Shown piece by piece: positions 12,506 through 36,763 of a stretch of DNA of 46,311 nucleotides (position 1 is the stretch's first letter; every line of letters starts with the position of its first letter). The stretch is from Flavobacteriales bacterium. Its GTDB lineage: Bacteria; Bacteroidota; Bacteroidia; Flavobacteriales_F; PHOS-HE28. The DNA is taken from positions 1-46,311 of the forward strand of contig JAGNUG010000018.1 of NCBI GenBank assembly GCA_017987115.1, written 5' to 3'. The notes beneath the pieces are model-generated. The model did not search any database. It worked only from the letters and a program-made list of their open reading frames with translations, and had not been told where the DNA came from. The position numbers and the translations under genes were made by a program.

Positions 12506-12628
12506 ACCAAAAAAGAGGCACTCATCAATGCAGCACTCACGGACACCGCTGTAACCGTATCCTGTTGGGTACGCACCTTCCGCAACGACCGCTTCATTGC
12601 ATTGAACGATGGGTGTATTCTCCCATGA
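12506..12628 (+). pseudogene. asnS 5' fragment (degraded)
   Basis: A 40-residue stretch (KKEALINAAL then VTVSCWVRTFRNDRFIALND) matches the N-terminal anticodon-binding part of the intact asnS at 23645 (KKVLHNESLIG then VTVAGWIRTFRNDRFIALND). The match starts near the same codon and is co-linear without gaps until a GCIL stretch, after which the frame ends at TGA 12626. Nothing of the remaining aminoacyl-tRNA synthetase is present. The fragment lies directly beside, and opposite in strand to, a dead response-regulator gene. It is a duplicated remnant, not a gene. Confidence 0.85.
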
Positions 12629-23567: not shown

Positions 23568-23644
23568 TCCGAAATGGAACTGTGGTCTGCTTTCTGCATG
23601 TGAACCACAGGCTTTACATCTTTGCGGTCCCTTTCGGTAACACC

Positions 23645-25114
23645 ATGCCGGAAGAAATGAACATGTATTCCATCAAAAAAGTACTTCACAACGAATCCCT
23701 GATAGGTAAGACCGTAACCGTAGCAGGCTGGATCCGCACCTTCCGAAACGACCGCTTCATAGCGCTGAACGACGGAAGCACGATCCTCAATTTGCAATGC
23801 GTGATCGATCAAGAGCAAGTCGATGCGGCAACACGCGCACGTTTTACCACAAGTGCCGCTGTTAAGTGTACCGGTGAACTCATCGCGTCGCAAGGCAGCG
23901 GCCAGCGCATGGAAATGAAAGTGATCTCGGTTGAAGTTCTTGGTGATAGCGATGCCGCCAAGTATCCGATCCAGCCGAAAAAGCACAGCTTGGAATTCTT
24001 GCGCGAGAATGCACATTTGCGTTTCCGTACCAATACGTACAGCGCGATCTTCCGTATGCGCCACCAAGTGAGTTTTGGGATACACGAGTATTTCGATCGC
24101 GAGGGATACAACTATTTCCACAGTCCGATCATTACTGCTAGTGATGCGGAAGGTGCCGGGGAAATGTTCCGTGTAAGTGTGCTTGATCCGAAGACACCTC
24201 CCTTGAACGATGATGGAAACGTGAATTTCAAAGAAGACTTCTTCGGTGCTGAAAGTCGACTCACGGTCAGCGGTCAATTGCAGGCCGAACTTGCCGCTCT
24301 AGCATTAGGCAAAGTCTACACCTTCGGGCCCACATTCCGTGCAGAGAACAGCAACACTACGCGCCACCTGGCAGAGTTCTGGATGATAGAGCCGGAAGCT
24401 GCGTTCATGGACCTGGTCGGCGATATGGATCTTGCGGAAGGGTTGTGCAAATATTTGATCGCCCGCGTGCTGAAGAACAGCACGGATGATCTGCAATTCC
24501 TGGATGCGCGCTTGAAAGAAGAGGAAGTGACCAAGCCGCAAGCGCAACGCAGCGAGATGGGTTTGATCGAACGTTTGCAATTCGTACTGGAAAATCCGTT
24601 CGAACGGATCACCTACGACGATGCGATCAACATACTTCTCCGCAGCAAGCCCTATCAGAAAAAGCAATTCCAATTCCCAGTGGAATGGGGCATCGATCTG
24701 CAAAGTGAACACGAGCGTTACTTGGTGGAAAAGCACTTCAAGAAACCAGTGATCGTCACCGGATACCCAGCGAAGATCAAAGCGTTCTACATGCGCACCA
24801 ACGCACCCGGCGATTTCGGCTACAGCGAAAATGGCAAAACCGTAGCAGCGATGGATGTGCTCTTCCCCGGTATCGGAGAGATCATTGGTGGCAGCCAACG
24901 TGAAGAACGACTGGACGTGTTGGAAGCGCGCATGAAGGACATGAACGTACCTGCCGAAGAACTCGATTGGTATTTGGATACCCGCAGATTTGGCACGGTG
25001 CCGCACGCTGGTTTCGGGCTTGGTCTTGAACGGTTCGTTCTCTTCGTTACGGGTATGGGGAATATTCGGGATGTGATCCCCTTCCCGCGGACGCCGGGGA
25101 GTGCGGAGTTTTAA
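23645..25114 (+). CDS. asnS: asparagine--tRNA ligase
   Basis: This 489-residue class IIb synthetase charges tRNA-Asn with asparagine in the cytoplasm. The N-terminal OB-fold anticodon-binding domain is clear (VTVAGWIRTFRNDRFIALND, residues 20-40). The catalytic core has motif 2 (FRAENSNTTRHLAEFWMIEPE) and motif 3 ([12 protein letters not shown]), and the protein ends as usual just after the IRDVIPFPR motif. The start is uncertain: ATG 23645 is used; ATG 23657 and 23663 are also in frame, and GGAAGAA just upstream of 23657 would suit 23663. Length is normal for Bacteroidota. Two partial duplicates exist in the window, a 5' fragment at 12506 and the last 420 nt at 30259. Confidence 0.96.
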   Translation: MPEEMNMYSIKKVLHNESLIGKTVTVAGWIRTFRNDRFIALNDGSTILNLQCVIDQEQVDAATRARFTTSAAVKCTGELIASQGSGQRMEMKVISVEVLGDSDAAKYPIQPKKHSLEFLRENAHLRFRTNTYSAIFRMRHQVSFGIHEYFDREGYNYFHSPIITASDAEGAGEMFRVSVLDPKTPPLNDDGNVNFKEDFFGAESRLTVSGQLQAELAALALGKVYTFGPTFRAENSNTTRHLAEFWMIEPEAAFMDLVGDMDLAEGLCKYLIARVLKNSTDDLQFLDARLKEEEVTKPQAQRSEMGLIERLQFVLENPFERITYDDAINILLRSKPYQKKQFQFPVEWGIDLQSEHERYLVEKHFKKPVIVTGYPAKIKAFYMRTNAPGDFGYSENGKTVAAMDVLFPGIGEIIGGSQREERLDVLEARMKDMNVPAEELDWYLDTRRFGTVPHAGFGLGLERFVLFVTGMGNIRDVIPFPRTPGSAEF

Positions 25115-25166: not shown

Positions 25167-25514
25167 ATGAAGATCTACCACCTAGCTAATTGTGGCACCT
25201 GTAAACGCATTATCGCGGAGATCCCGAAACTGAAGCGCTTCGAGCTCCAAGAGATCAAAACACAGCCCATTACCGGGAACCAATTGGACGAATTGAGATC
25301 CATGGCGGGAAGCTATGAGGCACTGATCAGTAAGATCGCCATGAAGTACCGGAGCATGGGACTCAATGAGAAGAAGCTAACTGAGAAGGACTTCCGCAAG
25401 TACATCCTGGAAGAATACACCTTTTTGAAACGCCCAGTGATCGTTATCGGAAACGAGCTCTTCGTTGGCAGTGCGCCGAAGACGGTGAAGGCAATGATGG
25501 AGGCGGCGAAGTAG
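25167..25514 (+). CDS. ArsC/Spx-family thioredoxin-fold protein
   Basis: This 115-residue single-domain protein of the ArsC/Spx/YffB superfamily starts MKIYHLANCGTCKR, with a CxxC pair C9-C12 at the N-terminus of the first helix. The remainder follows the family plan: an EIKTQPIT strand, a helical insertion (TEKDFRKYILEEYTFLKRP) and a RPVIVIGNELFVG strand-turn. Family members are glutathione- or thioredoxin-linked reductases or redox regulators; which one cannot be decided here, and no arsenic genes are nearby. It lies 52 nt after asnS but has its own promoter-like element. A 54-residue N-terminal counterpart is fused to an asnS fragment at 30101. Confidence 0.88.
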   Translation: MKIYHLANCGTCKRIIAEIPKLKRFELQEIKTQPITGNQLDELRSMAGSYEALISKIAMKYRSMGLNEKKLTEKDFRKYILEEYTFLKRPVIVIGNELFVGSAPKTVKAMMEAAK

Positions 25515-30100: not shown

Positions 30101-30678
30101 GTGCACATCCAACACCTATCCACCTGCTCTACTTGCCAACGTATCCTGAACGTGATACCGGACCTGAAGCACTTTGCGTTGCAGGACATTAAGACCAAAC
30201 CGATCACCGCCAAACAGTTGGAGGAATTGAAGAAAACGGTTGGTAGTTATGAAGCGTTGACCTGCAAAGCGAGCACGAACGTTACTTGGTGGAAAAGCAT
30301 TTTAAAAAGCCTGTGATCGTTACCGGATACCCTGCTACGATCAAAGCATTCTACATGCGCAACAACGGTCCCGGCGACCTTGGCTACAGTGAAAAAGGTA
30401 AGACCGTCGCGGCCATGGACGTGTTGTTCCCCGGCATCGGAGATCTCTTCGGGGGTAGCCAACGCGAAGAACACCTCGACGTTCTCGAAGCACGCATGAA
30501 GGACATGAACGTACCCGTTGAAGAACTCGATTGGTATTTGGATACGCGCCGTTTCGGCACCGTACCTCACGCTGGTTTTGGACTTGGTCTGGAACGTTTT
30601 GTGCTGTTCGCTACCGGCATGGGGAATATTCGGGATGTTATTCCGTTCCCGCGGTTCCCGGGTGGGGCGGAGTTTTGA
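30101..30678 (+). pseudogene. recombinant pseudogene: arsC-like 5' part joined to asnS 3' part
   Basis: Nucleotides 30101-30262 align without gaps to the first 162 nt of the arsC-like gene at 25167 ([29 protein letters not shown]), starting from a GTG. Nucleotides 30259-30678 align without gaps to the last 420 nt of asnS (24695-25114), including motif 3 ([10 protein letters not shown]) and the stop position. The two parts share only GACC (30259-30262), matching GATC at 25325-25328 in the arsC-like gene and GATC at 24695-24698 in asnS. The asnS part is out of frame with the arsC part, so the joined ORF ends at 30314-30316. The asnS part has no internal stops and could at most start at ATG 30340 or GTG 30286, but it lacks motifs 1 and 2. 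Confidence 0.9.
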
Positions 30679-30909: not shown

Positions 30910-31344
30910 ATGTCTGATATCCTATCCATCGATCTGATCAAGAGTTTGCGCAAGCAGGAACGTCGCCTGAAGCGGCGATCCGGCATTCGTGTGATCGTGC
31001 AGAAAGTGACCGCGAATGGTGTGAATATGTTGTGCAACGCTTGGCGACCTGGTCTTCCGTTCTTGCAAGGTCATCTGGAAGAGCACGAGATCGTATCCCT
31101 TGCGCACGAAGCACTTCGGCCACTAACAAAATTAGGATTGCGGCCCTTGATCAGTGTGGTCAATAGGCGGTCAATGCGGGATGCTGCAAAGCGAACGAAG
31201 CGCGACCCGTTCCATTTCCTTGCGGCCATGCACAATGCGGGTCTTGATTCGATCGGTCCAACTGCCCCGGAGAACATATCCAAGGAGGAAGTTGAACGAC
31301 GCATCGCATTGTTGAACGCGAACAGCGGTACACGCGTTTCTTGA
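30910..31344 (+). CDS. conserved-looking small basic protein, unknown function
   Basis: This 144-residue protein starts at ATG 30910 (MSDILSIDLIKSLRKQ). It is soluble and basic, with no signal peptide. Two regions stand out: a basic N-terminus (KQERRLKRRSG) and a C-terminal part with KRTKRDPFHFLAAMHNAGL and a helical EEVERRIALLNA end. I do not recognise the family. Its 3' three quarters recur at 33253-33638, after the GT-C-like gene, 97% identical over 386 bp. An imperfect promoter-like CAACTTTG lies about 20 nt upstream of the start. Confidence 0.7.
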   Translation: MSDILSIDLIKSLRKQERRLKRRSGIRVIVQKVTANGVNMLCNAWRPGLPFLQGHLEEHEIVSLAHEALRPLTKLGLRPLISVVNRRSMRDAAKRTKRDPFHFLAAMHNAGLDSIGPTAPENISKEEVERRIALLNANSGTRVS

Positions 31345-31403
31345 TCGGATCTCTACACCGTACCAGACAGATGGTCGTGAATATGCCGGCGGCGCGGTGA
31401 TCA
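31018..31403 (+). repeat. 386-bp direct repeat, copy 1
   Basis: This copy runs from within the small unknown gene through its stop and 59 nt beyond, to GGTGATCA. It matches 33253-33638 with equal length and about 11 mismatches by eye. The outer flanks are unrelated. The two copies bracket the GT-C-like gene. Confidence 0.9.
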
Positions 31404-31527
31404 CGTGTTCGTTGGGAGTTCCAAGGTTGTTGTTGTGGTGGTGGAGGTGGCGAAGTGATCCTCTTCCCGGTTTGATGTCTGCAGCGATGTACTCAAGTGT
31501 GTTGCGCTACATTCGGTCGCCGTAGCA

Positions 31528-33153
31528 ATGACCTTGAAGCTGAACTCACTTGTTGTCCGTGCACTTTTTTTGGTGGTTCCTTTACTGTTGTTCGGGTTAT
31601 CGCGTAAGGTGCATAATGCGAGCGGTGACTTCTCGATCACTTACATCGACCCGGAATATCTTCACTTGTACAACGGCATTGCGATCGCCGATGGACAACT
31701 TGATGTTGGTTATACAGCGCACCCGGGAACACCGCTGCAGTATGTGATAGCCGTTGCGGCGCGCATTCATTTTGCGTTCGCTGATGCATCTTCTTTTGTT
31801 GATCATTTTATCGATCATCCACAGGAATACATTACTTCCGCGAACGTGTTGTTGAACTTGATATTGTCGGTTTGCTTGTTCTATTTAGGGCTGCTAACGT
31901 TTCGATATAGTGGCTCCATCGCGATCGCACTGGCGGTGCAATTGTGTGTGTTCGGCCACTATGCCATCGTGTTCCTGACCGGACGATTATTTCCCGAAGG
32001 CCTTATGCTAATACCGTTGCTGGTGGTGATCTTACTCGTGATCCGGAACATTTATACTGACCCACGAATAACGCGAAAAGAGTTGCTATTTTTTGCTCTT
32101 CCTATAGGGTTCGGTATCGCGTGTAAACTCACTTTCGCACCGTTACTTTTTATTCCGTTGATCCTATTACGGACCAACATTCGGCAGAAGGTCGAACTGG
32201 TCACTTATTCCTTGGTAGCCTTTTTGCTTTTCGCATACCCAGTTGTTCTGCACTTCCACGATTTCTACGAATGGACAGGAGGCATGGCGGTACATAGTGG
32301 CAAATATGGCGGTGGTTCCAAGGGTTTTATCGATCTTGAACAAGCAGCGTTGAACTTGAAGGAACTGTTTACGTTTGATCCAAGATTCTTTTTTGTCACG
32401 CTCTGTGCATGTGGTATTGCAATTGTCAGTTCGTTCGTTCCATCGTCTGCACTAAACTTAACCTTCGGGAGGATCCGCCGGGCGATCCTGGCTGTTTCCA
32501 CCGCACTTTTCGTAGCTGTTCTGTTGACGATCAAACACTTCGCTCTGCACTATTTTACTCCGTTCTATTGTTTCAACGTTCTACTGATCGTACTTGCTGG
32601 CATCTTACTTATTCGCACTGGTCGTAACGCAACGTTCACCGCAAGGCGGATGTGGATCCCGTTTGCCATGACACTTCCGCTTGTGCTTTTTGGTTGCAAA
32701 CAAACACTTGAAGCACTCTTCTATCAACAGAACATTACCACCGAAAAAACGGTTGCGGCCATGGAGGTGAATGCTATGATCACGGCCCAAATTCCCATTG
32801 TCATTCTTGCACCGTATTCCGGATCCCCATTCGTCGCTTATGCGCACATGAATGGATTAAAAATGAGTTACAACGCCAAGAGCAGATTCAAAGATCGGTT
32901 GATCGAACGCTTCCCCATGTCTTACCATTATGTTCAATGGTCGCCGGATCTTTATTTCTTTGAAGAAGAGCGCTCGTGGAAGGAAGTTGCCGCGCAAGGT
33001 ATAGGACGGTTCTACTTGTATGTTGGTAACGAAGTCTCGCCCGGACTGGATGAAGTAAAAGCGCGAATGTCTGCCGCGTTTGGTGTATACTCCATCAATC
33101 AACTGCGCATCACTGAGCAAGGTGTTCTGTGGTTGGTCAAGTTGGAACAATAG
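31528..33153 (+). CDS. polytopic membrane protein, GT-C glycosyltransferase-like
   Basis: This 541-residue protein has about ten hydrophobic segments in the first 370 residues and a soluble C-terminal part of about 160 residues. TM1 (residues 9-24) is followed by an acidic extracytoplasmic loop (IDPEYLHLYNG..., then GYTAHPGTPLQYVIA). This is the arrangement of GT-C glycosyltransferases of the PMT/ArnT type, where an early loop acid is catalytic and lipid-phosphate sugar is the donor. The similarity is in architecture and loop motifs, not a firm family match. The gene sits alone between two copies of a 386-bp repeat, so it appears to have come in with the rearrangement. It could act on glycans or lipids of the cell surface; a polysaccharide deacetylase gene lies just beyond. 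Confidence 0.6.
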   Translation: MTLKLNSLVVRALFLVVPLLLFGLSRKVHNASGDFSITYIDPEYLHLYNGIAIADGQLDVGYTAHPGTPLQYVIAVAARIHFAFADASSFVDHFIDHPQEYITSANVLLNLILSVCLFYLGLLTFRYSGSIAIALAVQLCVFGHYAIVFLTGRLFPEGLMLIPLLVVILLVIRNIYTDPRITRKELLFFALPIGFGIACKLTFAPLLFIPLILLRTNIRQKVELVTYSLVAFLLFAYPVVLHFHDFYEWTGGMAVHSGKYGGGSKGFIDLEQAALNLKELFTFDPRFFFVTLCACGIAIVSSFVPSSALNLTFGRIRRAILAVSTALFVAVLLTIKHFALHYFTPFYCFNVLLIVLAGILLIRTGRNATFTARRMWIPFAMTLPLVLFGCKQTLEALFYQQNITTEKTVAAMEVNAMITAQIPIVILAPYSGSPFVAYAHMNGLKMSYNAKSRFKDRLIERFPMSYHYVQWSPDLYFFEEERSWKEVAAQGIGRFYLYVGNEVSPGLDEVKARMSAAFGVYSINQLRITEQGVLWLVKLEQ

Positions 33154-33252
33154 CCTGAATTACGCTGCGTGTGATAGCTTCTCCTTAGCGTCTGAATTCT
33201 ATTGAAAACGGCAACTTAGCAACCGCATCAAATTCTCAATACCCCCACGTGC

Positions 33253-33638
33253 GGTGTGAATATGTTGTGCAACGCTTGGCGACCTGGTCTTCCGTTCTTG
33301 CAAGGTCATCTGGAAGAGCACGAGATCGAATCCCTTGCGCACGAAGCACTTCGGCCACTAACAAAATTAGGATTGCGGCCCCTGGTCAGTGTGGTCAATA
33401 GGCGATCAATGCGCGATGCTGCAAAGCGAACGAAGCGCGACCCGTTCTATTTCCTTGCGGCCATGCACAATGCGGGTCTTGATCCGATCGGTCCAACTAC
33501 CCCGGAGAACATATCAAAGCAGGAAGTTGAACGACGCATCGCATTGTTGAACGCGAACAGCGGCACACGCGTTTCTTGATCGGATCTCTACACCGTACCA
33601 GACAGATGGTCGTGAATATGCCGGCGGCGCGGTGATCA
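33253..33638 (+). repeat. 386-bp direct repeat, copy 2
   Basis: This is the second copy of 31018-31403. It begins abruptly at GGTGTGAATATG and ends at GGTGATCA, 2 nt short of the polysaccharide deacetylase stop codon. Confidence 0.9.
33256..33579 (+). pseudogene. 5'-truncated second copy of the small unknown gene
   Basis: The reading frame (107 residues from GTG, or 105 from ATG 33262) matches residues 38-144 of the protein at 30910. The first 37 codons and the upstream region are missing. At least six amino-acid changes (for example V to E, H to Y, A to T, E to Q) among about 11 base changes suggest no constraint on one of the copies. Confidence 0.8.
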
Positions 33639-33640
33639 TC

Positions 33641-34561
33641 CTACTTCGGTAACGCGTCAAATTCACGTTGGATGTATTCGTCCAAAGGCTCTCGTTGCAA
33701 GAACCGTTTGCGGCTATCAGCATCCGATATATTCCTGTACACCCAAGAAATGCCCCACTTCTTATAATAGGTATCCTCTTGGTCGTAGAACGGATCGTTC
33801 AATGCTTCTTCGATCGAAATGAACTGGTATTCTCTTTCTGCCAAGGCGATGGTCAACCGTGCCAGATGATCTGCATTCAAGCGATTATCGTGGCACAAGT
33901 AGATGTGGTCCACGGTGCGGCCAGCGGTCCGCATTAGCACCGAGTCCGAGAAGGCGAACAACCGCAACGTATAAGTAATGTACTTTTCTGCAACGCGATC
34001 AGCATCTTCGATCAAGCCTTGCTGCAGTTTGTATTCATAAACAGCATTGTAGATGTAGTCTGAACTTTCCACCGTATAAGGTGATATACGATAGCCCTTG
34101 GACGCAAGGTGTTGACGAAAAGCCTGTTGCTGTAGAGAGTCTGCACCCAGGTCGTTGTAAGGAAATCGAAAATGGTGCAGTGGCTTGTTGGACAGCGCAG
34201 CCAAAATGCGGGTATGAGCTTCCCCTCTTTCTACCTCCGATGCAAAGGAGTCGACCGACAATTCTGAACACCTTGCATGGGTGTATGTATGGTTGCCCAA
34301 CGTACTGTTCCTGTGTGCTACCCAACGCTCCAATAAGCGCTTGTTGCTCGCTAATGAGTCGCCATGTTCCAGTTTGCCTTCATTGATGAAAATGGCTACC
34401 GGAATATCCAATGTGGTCAGCGTATCCAACAGACGTGACCGATACTGATCTTTTGCGAAGTAGCGCGTATTCGGAACATCATCAATTGTGATGGAGACCC
34501 TGCCTTGCCCGCTCACCACCACGGTCATCAACGCAAGAAACCCGATCAATACGTACTTCAT
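33641..34561 (-). CDS. polysaccharide deacetylase family protein (CE4-like)
   Basis: This 306-residue secreted protein starts at ATG 34561 (MKYVLIGFLALMTVVVSGQG signal peptide); an upstream extension to 34615 is unlikely. The NodB-type fold is indicated by ITIDDVP (D27-D28, catalytic and metal-binding acids) and by NHTYTH, the metal-binding H-x3-H motif. A later HHFRFPYNDLG region fits motif 3 of the family (RxPY). Members remove acetyl groups from chitin, peptidoglycan or other polysaccharides. The distal part has additional helices and a Tyr-rich end. It follows the S9 peptidase gene by 26 nt, so the two may be co-transcribed. Confidence 0.85.
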   Translation of the reverse strand: MKYVLIGFLALMTVVVSGQGRVSITIDDVPNTRYFAKDQYRSRLLDTLTTLDIPVAIFINEGKLEHGDSLASNKRLLERWVAHRNSTLGNHTYTHARCSELSVDSFASEVERGEAHTRILAALSNKPLHHFRFPYNDLGADSLQQQAFRQHLASKGYRISPYTVESSDYIYNAVYEYKLQQGLIEDADRVAEKYITYTLRLFAFSDSVLMRTAGRTVDHIYLCHDNRLNADHLARLTIALAEREYQFISIEEALNDPFYDQEDTYYKKWGISWVYRNISDADSRKRFLQREPLDEYIQREFDALPK

Positions 34562-34587
34562 CTTTTCACTTCGGTTCCCGATGAGGT

Positions 34588-36660
34588 TCACCGTTCCAAA
34601 TGCGCATCCAACCAATCAAAAACGGTCTTGTGCCACTGCATGCTATTCTGTGGTTTCAGCACCCAGTGGTTCTCATCCGGGAAACGTAGAAATTGCGATT
34701 CGACATTCTTGGCCTGTAAGGCTGAGAAAACGCCGATGCCTTGCGCCAAAGGGATGCGATAGTCCTTGTCCGAGTGGATCACCAACATGGGTACAGACCA
34801 TTTATTGACGTGGAATGCAGGATTGAATTCGTCGTACTTCGCAGGATCCGCATACACATCAGCACCGCCGGATTCCCATTGCGAGAACCAGAATTCTTCC
34901 GTGGTATAGGCCATTGAACGTGTGTCGAAAACACCATTGTGCGTTATCAAACACTTCCAAGGTTCGTTCCAGTTACCTGCGATCCAATTCACCATGAAGC
35001 CGCCGTATGATGCACCCAACGCCCCAGCACGATCACCATCCAAATACGGATAGGCCTTCAATGCATGCGCCCACCCTTTTTGCAGATCCTCCAACGGGCG
35101 GTCGCCCCAATGATCGGATATCGCATCGGTGAACGCTTGACCATAACCCGTGGATCCGTGGAAGTCGATCATGACCACCGCATAACCTGCACCAGCGTAC
35201 GTCTGTGGGTTCCAACGGTAACTCCATCCGTCACCGAAACTGCCCTGCGGACCACCGTGGATCAAGAACGCAACAGGGTACTTCTTGCCTTCGACATAAC
35301 CTACTGGTTTGATCACATAGCCGTACACTGTTTCATCATTCCAACCTTTGAAGTTGAATTGCTCGAAGGCTCCGAATTCCTTGTCCTTCAAACTTGCATT
35401 CACGTTCGTTAGTGTAGTTGCACCTTCGTCGATCATTTTTGCTTTGGCCGCTGCCGCATAGATCTGCGTAGGTCCGTTCAAACCGCTCTTCTGGAAAACG
35501 GATCCGGTCGGTGTCTGGTGCAGTGCATCAAAATGGCCACCCGTGGTGAGCGGTGCAGCAGCACCCGTTCTCACATCGACCCTGAACAAGCGTGTTGTGC
35601 CGATATCGCCTGCTGTTACATAAAGGCTTTTTCCATCGCGGCTCCATTGGATCGACCCTGCGCTTCGATCCCAATCAGCAGCAAGCGGTGTTACTTTTCC
35701 TGTGGCAATATCAAGTAATTGTATTTCGAAACGATCAGCTTCAAAACCGGGACGCTTCATGGCCGTATAGGCCAACGTCTTGCCATCCGGAGATACGACC
35801 GGCGAAGCATCCCACGCTTTGTTCGCTGCTGTCAAGTTCGTACGCTTTCCGCCACTGATCGGTACACTGAAGATATCGAAGTTGGTGCTCCATGGCTCCG
35901 TTGTTCCAGCAACGCGCGCAGCGAAATAGACCGTCCTCGAATCAGGCGAAATGAAAAAGTCCTCCGCTCCACCCCATGGTTTGGATGGTACATCGCCATC
36001 GAAACCGGGCATCAGCGCAACGGGTGGTGTACTGCCATCCATTGGTACGTAGTACAAGTGGTTGCGTGTTCCATCCGCCCAGGTATCCCAATGCCGCACG
36101 AACAGTTTCGTGTATACCATTCCGGTGGACTTATCCGCAGCACGTGCCACGTTCTTGGCAACGGTGCAAGTGATCGCATCGTCCTTGCATGCTTCATTGA
36201 TCGCCAATGAAACAACGAACCCTTTGCCATCCGGCGTGATCCGATAAGCACCAATATCCAACGGCAGTCGTGTGATCTGTTCGGCCTTGTCTCCTGCAAC
36301 ATCGGTCTTCCATACCTGCGTTGTTCCACCCTCTCCACGAGCAGATAAAAAGAAAATATTCTTTCCGTCGGGCGACCATGTTGCATCGAACGCACCACCT
36401 TCGCTCACGCCCAATTTCACTTCGGGTATGCTTGGTTTCGTAAGGTCCTTCAGCCAAAACGTTGAGACCCCTTTGTTCATTTCCAAGTCCGTGGCGCGCA
36501 CGTTGAACACCGCGTAATGCCCTGTTAGGTCCACCGAAACACCACTGATGCGATCGAGCATGAGCATGTCCGAGTAAGTGAAAGGTGTGATCTGTGCGTT
36601 GGTGGTGAGCAGGACACTAGCTAAGCACACAACGGTAAAAAAGCGAAGTACGGGTTTCAT
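34588..36660 (-). CDS. S9-family prolyl oligopeptidase-like serine peptidase
   Basis: This 690-residue exported peptidase starts at ATG 36660 (MKPVLRFF signal peptide ending TTNAQ); the frame extends to 36759 but adds an unlikely leader. Residues 30-400 form the beta-propeller with WD-like SPDGKN.FF.SAR and SPDSRTVYFAAR repeats. The alpha/beta-hydrolase domain (about 440-690) has the full triad: S551 in GASYGGF, D633 in HSDKDYRIPLAQG and H665 in ENHWVLKP. These are hallmarks of dipeptidyl-peptidase or acylaminoacyl-peptidase types. It is likely periplasmic and degrades short peptides; exact specificity is unclear. Confidence 0.94.
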   Translation of the reverse strand: MKPVLRFFTVVCLASVLLTTNAQITPFTYSDMLMLDRISGVSVDLTGHYAVFNVRATDLEMNKGVSTFWLKDLTKPSIPEVKLGVSEGGAFDATWSPDGKNIFFLSARGEGGTTQVWKTDVAGDKAEQITRLPLDIGAYRITPDGKGFVVSLAINEACKDDAITCTVAKNVARAADKSTGMVYTKLFVRHWDTWADGTRNHLYYVPMDGSTPPVALMPGFDGDVPSKPWGGAEDFFISPDSRTVYFAARVAGTTEPWSTNFDIFSVPISGGKRTNLTAANKAWDASPVVSPDGKTLAYTAMKRPGFEADRFEIQLLDIATGKVTPLAADWDRSAGSIQWSRDGKSLYVTAGDIGTTRLFRVDVRTGAAAPLTTGGHFDALHQTPTGSVFQKSGLNGPTQIYAAAAKAKMIDEGATTLTNVNASLKDKEFGAFEQFNFKGWNDETVYGYVIKPVGYVEGKKYPVAFLIHGGPQGSFGDGWSYRWNPQTYAGAGYAVVMIDFHGSTGYGQAFTDAISDHWGDRPLEDLQKGWAHALKAYPYLDGDRAGALGASYGGFMVNWIAGNWNEPWKCLITHNGVFDTRSMAYTTEEFWFSQWESGGADVYADPAKYDEFNPAFHVNKWSVPMLVIHSDKDYRIPLAQGIGVFSALQAKNVESQFLRFPDENHWVLKPQNSMQWHKTVFDWLDAHLER

Positions 36661-36763
36661 CTGTTGCAATTTATTCGACCGCAAGAACGTTCGATGTTCA
36701 AGCAGTGATGAGCGCCAAGATACGAGCGGCTCGACACGGAACAACTGGACTACTCCCAATACA

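Follow-up and report, generated by a model that had tools for sequence, protein, structure and literature searches.

The window, by which we mean the whole stretch of 46,311 nucleotides analysed here, contains a pair of direct repeats on its forward strand: copy 1 at 31018..31403 and copy 2 at 33253..33638. Both are 386 nt long, and they align without gaps, with 375 of the 386 positions identical (97.15%), 11 substitutions, and a spacing of 2,235 nt from one copy to the other. The BLAST score of one repeat against the other, 647 bits, is well above chance level, and across the 3.73-Mb genome the 386-nt repeat occurs at just these two sites. When 300 nt are compared each way, the outer flanks share only short chance words, and all four sides are unrelated. 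The initial annotation, which described two repeats of equal length, about 97% identical and with unrelated outer flanks, is thus borne out, as is its remark that the second repeat stops 2 nt short of the stop codon of a deacetylase gene: copy 2 ends at 33638, and the stop occupies positions 33641-33643. This gene, at 33641..34615 on the reverse strand, encodes a polysaccharide deacetylase (PF01522, E 1.6e-13).

Copy 1 lies in a small intact gene, an open reading frame of 144 amino acids on the forward strand (30910..31344, with the ATG at 30910 and the stop at 31344): the repeat covers codons 37-144, the 3' three-quarters of the gene, and 59 nt downstream. Copy 2 is a 5'-truncated version of the same gene, followed by the corresponding 59 nt: the first 36 codons are missing, and what remains (33256..33579, forward strand) is still open over 107 amino acids, with no in-frame stops. 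All 11 substitutions fall in the coding part, 5 of them synonymous and 6 non-synonymous, for a dS of 0.065, a dN of 0.025 and a ratio of 0.38; their clustering in the middle of the repeat is marginal (p about 0.03), and the longest identical runs common to both copies measure 76 and 74 nt. By eye, two family-conserved sites differ between the copies, as V/E and I/V, and since copy 1 retains the family-like residue at both, copy 2 looks like a relaxed copy.

A possible source of such a pair is the assembly itself, if two strain variants of one segment were placed in the same draft contig. The assembly is indeed a draft, in 202 contigs, and an identity of 97% is at the level of strain variation. 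However, it is exactly the 5' end that is missing from copy 2, the left flank of which is distinct and its own, and the longer of the two exact runs is resolved by the usual assembly word sizes. We hold an artefact of this sort to be very unlikely.

The small protein has no Pfam, NCBIfam or PHROGs match in profile scans, and its single-sequence structure model, with a pLDDT of 40, is too poor for use. A phage or plasmid gene was considered and rejected, the gene being unmatched in phage and plasmid records, in viral contigs and in PHROGs. A profile search finds distant relatives in 8 of the 44 other congeners, and the genome itself has a paralogue on another contig (G000:C145); in the congeners where both could be placed, the relative and the asparaginyl-tRNA synthetase gene asnS are on different contigs. 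Close relatives are absent from the wider genome contigs, and no genome searched has an orthologue, so that an empty site for comparison is lacking. In one congener (L076, G015:C42) a DUF3846 gene (PF12957) comes immediately after the relative, and another case (L073, in G005) has the same look by eye.

The sole gene of the insert, at 31528..33153 on the forward strand, encodes a membrane protein of 541 amino acids with homologues in other families. We call it GT-C-like, a reading suggested by its motifs and by its homologues, which match PMT_2 (1.5e-4) and GT87 (5.5e-4) weakly. As in the GT-C glycosyltransferases (PMT_2, PF13231; GT87, PF09594), the protein is polytopic, with an acidic motif in its first loop, DPEY, and an HPGTP motif; unlike them, it matches no profile itself. 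Its single-sequence structure model has a pLDDT of 41, a confidence too low for use.

A sequence search of 34 congeners returns a single, marginal match to this gene (G022, E 8.5e-4), and clear matches, with E from 1e-28 to 1e-36, come from three further families of the class. With a profile, relatives appear in 29 of the 395 class genomes sampled, none of them in another member of the genus, and there are no close relatives in the wider genome contigs. Because the 34 congeners hold no strong match and the relatives belong to other families of the class, the gene was very probably acquired from outside. The comparison of base composition between insert and flanks, proposed in the initial annotation, turns out to be a weak test: with a GC content of 0.473, the insert is the lowest among equal-sized segments here (against 0.515, SD 0.019), but membrane genes tend towards higher AT, and the trinucleotide signature of the insert is ordinary, at the 57th percentile. 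As for the prediction that recombination between the repeats would neatly remove the membrane gene, such an exchange, computed at four crossover points, would take out 2,235 bp and leave the small gene open and intact.

The borders of the surrounding interval are conserved in the genus. On the left stands an intact asnS, named from its sequence (23582..25114, forward strand), with congener proteins 84-92% identical, and on the right a gene for an S9-type peptidase, its family also named from sequence (34588..36759, reverse strand), which adjoins asnS in genomes G059, G021 and G016. These convergent neighbours are separated by 15 bp in G059 and by about 2 kb in G016 and G021; in the genome of the window, the distance is 9.5 kb. 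Beside asnS is an intact gene of the ArsC/Spx family (25167..25514, forward strand), with matches to TIGR01617 and to the arsC family that fall below the cut-offs; relatives of this gene are found downstream of asnS in many congeners. Judging by these arrangements, the repeat locus sits in a gene-turnover hot spot of the genus, between asnS and the S9 peptidase gene, and no gene recognisable as that of a plasmid, a phage or a recombinase was seen within that interval.

This interval resembles the recombination hot spots without mobile elements of Oliveira et al. 2017 (PMC5635113) in three respects: it is a variable interval between core genes, here asnS and the S9 peptidase gene, it has no integrase, and it contains a piece of a core gene that looks foreign. 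In the model of these authors, a double crossover in both border genes leaves no repeats; in contrast, duplicated gene ends remain here, which is more like single crossovers. We consider the asnS hot spot to be the more interesting part of this locus, ahead of the 386-bp repeat scar.

The interval holds a second duplication with the same topology as the 386-bp one: an intact asnS, an insert of 5.1 kb, and the 3' end of asnS, in its last 418 bp. The displaced 3' fragment (30253..30678, forward strand) is 82% identical to the intact gene over these 418 bp, and is joined to a 56-codon piece from the 5' end of another, divergent ArsC/Spx gene (30101..30268, forward strand), 57% identical to the intact one. 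Compared with the intact asnS, the fragment has a dS of 1.17, a dN of 0.063 and a dN/dS of 0.054. Because the differences are mostly synonymous, a long-decayed pseudogene can be ruled out: by its substitution pattern, the fragment stems from another asnS that was functional until recently, and the copies would have diverged while both were functional. In a tree of asnS 3' ends, the fragment is sister to the resident asnS; the donor may have belonged to a close lineage outside the sample, or a second copy of long standing may have been truncated late, and either would be acceptable. Alignment also reveals a short displaced 5' fragment of asnS at 12512..12619, forward strand, 11 kb upstream of the gene. 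Short asnS 5' ends are also present about 26 kb upstream of asnS in two other genomes (G010:C1:3222557-3222709 and G058:C189:26675-26827), and in all three cases they are on the same strand as asnS.

Displaced 3' ends of asnS are found 0.5-9 kb downstream of the gene in G004, G066, G023, G033, G067 and G017, and on a separate contig in G009, for a total of seven other congeners. These copies correspond to the last 40-420 bp of the gene (loci L053, L065, L069, L057, L088, L089 and L090), and their right edges are at the stop codon in G004, G066, G033 and G017. In the tree, the fragment of G004 groups with G032, apart from the asnS of G004 itself; judging by their flanks, the displaced ends of G017 and G023 would represent one common event. 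In several lineages, the stretch downstream of asnS repeats a conserved core some 65-75 bp long, and the short displaced copies have a common core around GGCATGGGnAAyATCCGnGAyGTGATCCC. It is tempting to conjecture that the genus has a recurrent, integrase-free mode of gene insertion that leaves gene 3' ends behind, with the 3' end of asnS as a preferred entry and the 386-bp repeat as one of its products, at another gene, but we regard so general a statement as a long shot. In two congeners (L091 in G060:C72, and L092 in G028:C10), AsnS carries about 150-170 additional amino acids, in frame and at the same place in both; by eye, no intein features were seen in them.

A single gene between direct repeats of the same orientation can also suggest site-specific recombination, in which the membrane gene would be the cassette, and the small gene would offer, in its 3' end, an attachment site or cassette site; elsewhere in the genome (G000:C17), there is a cassette-like array with attC-like repeats. 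However, the 386-nt repeat is mostly coding DNA, unlike the repeats of that array, it has neither a terminal pair of attC motifs nor a strong dyad, its longest exact inverted repeat being 8 nt, and the contig carries no integrase. This explanation seems to us very improbable. Two specific candidates were rejected: an integron cassette, for which box matches are only scattered, with no attC and no likeness to the repeats of the array, and an integrative element with a tyrosine integrase, there being no integrase gene beside the site on the window contig. That contig has no PF00589 match; the genome has two, on contigs C92 and C122, both to Xer-sized recombinases. Among the matches listed for 45 genomes, no tyrosine integrase is near asnS, and in none of the 45 genomes is there an integron integrase above the curated cut-off. 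The locus is like integrative elements at gene 3' ends in that a displaced gene 3' end, of the small gene or of asnS, marks the far edge of the insert, but it differs from them by the lack of an integrase on the contig, and by repeats of 386 and 418 bp, mostly coding, that far exceed the usual core site. The array itself (L121, G000:C17:1-20000) consists of many short genes, mostly on the same strand, with six copies of an attC-like repeat of about 115 bp and about nine copies of a repeat of about 500 bp.

An intact gene, an insert and a 5'-truncated second copy have the geometry of insertion-duplication by one crossover, and this is why we take the repeats to be the footprint of such an event: it is the best account, not proven, and in our estimation about evenly balanced between true and false. 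In the state that preceded it, some 60 nt would have separated the end of the small gene from the stop of the convergent deacetylase gene. The foreign DNA would have brought in the GT-C-like gene together with the 3' end of the small gene in a 5'-truncated copy, and was probably circular, at about 2.2 kb or at a larger size reduced by later trimming. Donor and resident gene would then have recombined through their common stretch by one RecA-type crossover, which would leave the resident gene full-length at the left, the common stretch again at the right, and the membrane gene between. What we observe is how the repeats are arranged, with one copy intact and the other truncated, that 34 congeners hold no strong match to the insert, and that the locus lies in a gene-turnover hot spot; what we infer is the involvement of a circle and of a crossover, the sequence in which things happened, and a lasting ability of the duplication to collapse and lose the gene.

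Several observations fit this account. Direct repeats bracket the insert, the flanks are unrelated, and one copy is intact while the other is truncated; the absence of the first 36 codons from copy 2 would mark the limit of donor homology, as expected of a single crossover. The size of the surrounding interval differs among congeners, from 15 bp to many kb, and a duplication of the same topology exists at asnS in the same interval. Partial duplications of 109-950 bp arose experimentally in E. coli from single crossovers in which the circles were partly degraded (PMC3240628). On the other side, neither an empty site in a relative nor a circular form was found, the oligonucleotide signature of the insert is not foreign, the 3% divergence between the copies could as well have accumulated after a rearrangement that was purely internal, and neither the genes recognised in the interval nor the phage and plasmid records searched tie the locus to a mobile element. 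The insertion has no direct proof, since the site is seen empty in no genome searched.

The scar belongs to an already known kind of event. As in Campbell-type insertion-duplication, direct repeats bracket an insert, one copy is whole, the other is truncated, and the event is reversible by recombination between the repeats. Unlike it, no vector, replicon or donor molecule is recognised here: the event is a natural one, its 3% divergence reflects either age or a donor that was itself 3% divergent, and the empty site was not found.

The initial annotation had left a choice between integration of a circle and tandem duplication with later loss. The first fits the geometry and has the E. coli precedent, whereas simple tandem duplication alone misfits, because the right flanks of the two copies differ and a second step is needed. 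In its fuller form, this history begins with a tandem duplication inside the genome that takes in the 3' end of the small gene and perhaps the membrane gene as well; the DNA to the right of copy 2 would then have been deleted or replaced, which brought the deacetylase gene up against that copy. The DNA of one genome suffices for this, a relaxed-looking copy 2 is what one expects of a leftover, and local duplications are common in the genome, as in the tandem paralogues of loci L109 and L143. However, the plain version predicts the same right flank for both copies, and these flanks differ at once: the second event would thus have to end exactly 2 nt before the deacetylase stop, and copy 2 is not followed by any duplicated piece of the membrane gene. 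We judge this history unlikely, though deserving of serious attention.

In homology-facilitated illegitimate recombination, a linear piece of foreign DNA recombines by homology at one end, and its other end is end-joined upstream of the crossover, yielding a duplication. This would account for one end of each repeat lying within a gene, and the interval does contain gene fragments set end to end, the arsC 5' and asnS 3' pieces at 30101-30678. However, this route usually gives a deletion, with 3-10 bp of junction microhomology, and not a duplication (PMC3240628), and we consider it rather improbable here.

Returning to the single crossover, scars that still show both copies reveal the entry of single foreign genes into chromosomes without a mobile element. 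With two scars of the same topology and the displaced asnS ends of congeners, a possible feeding of hot spots by single crossovers becomes testable by comparative genomics.

A survey of local direct repeats in 786 kb of the same genome found others: the tandem paralogues already mentioned, the cassette-like array, and a multi-part duplication (L159). Because of these, the local repeat itself is unremarkable in this genome; its partial-gene topology is less common. The multi-part duplication (G000:C55:10417-14738), with identities of 83-98%, brackets a gene of 511 amino acids and runs to the end of its contig, and it lies near genes that, by eye, resemble a toxin-antitoxin pair.
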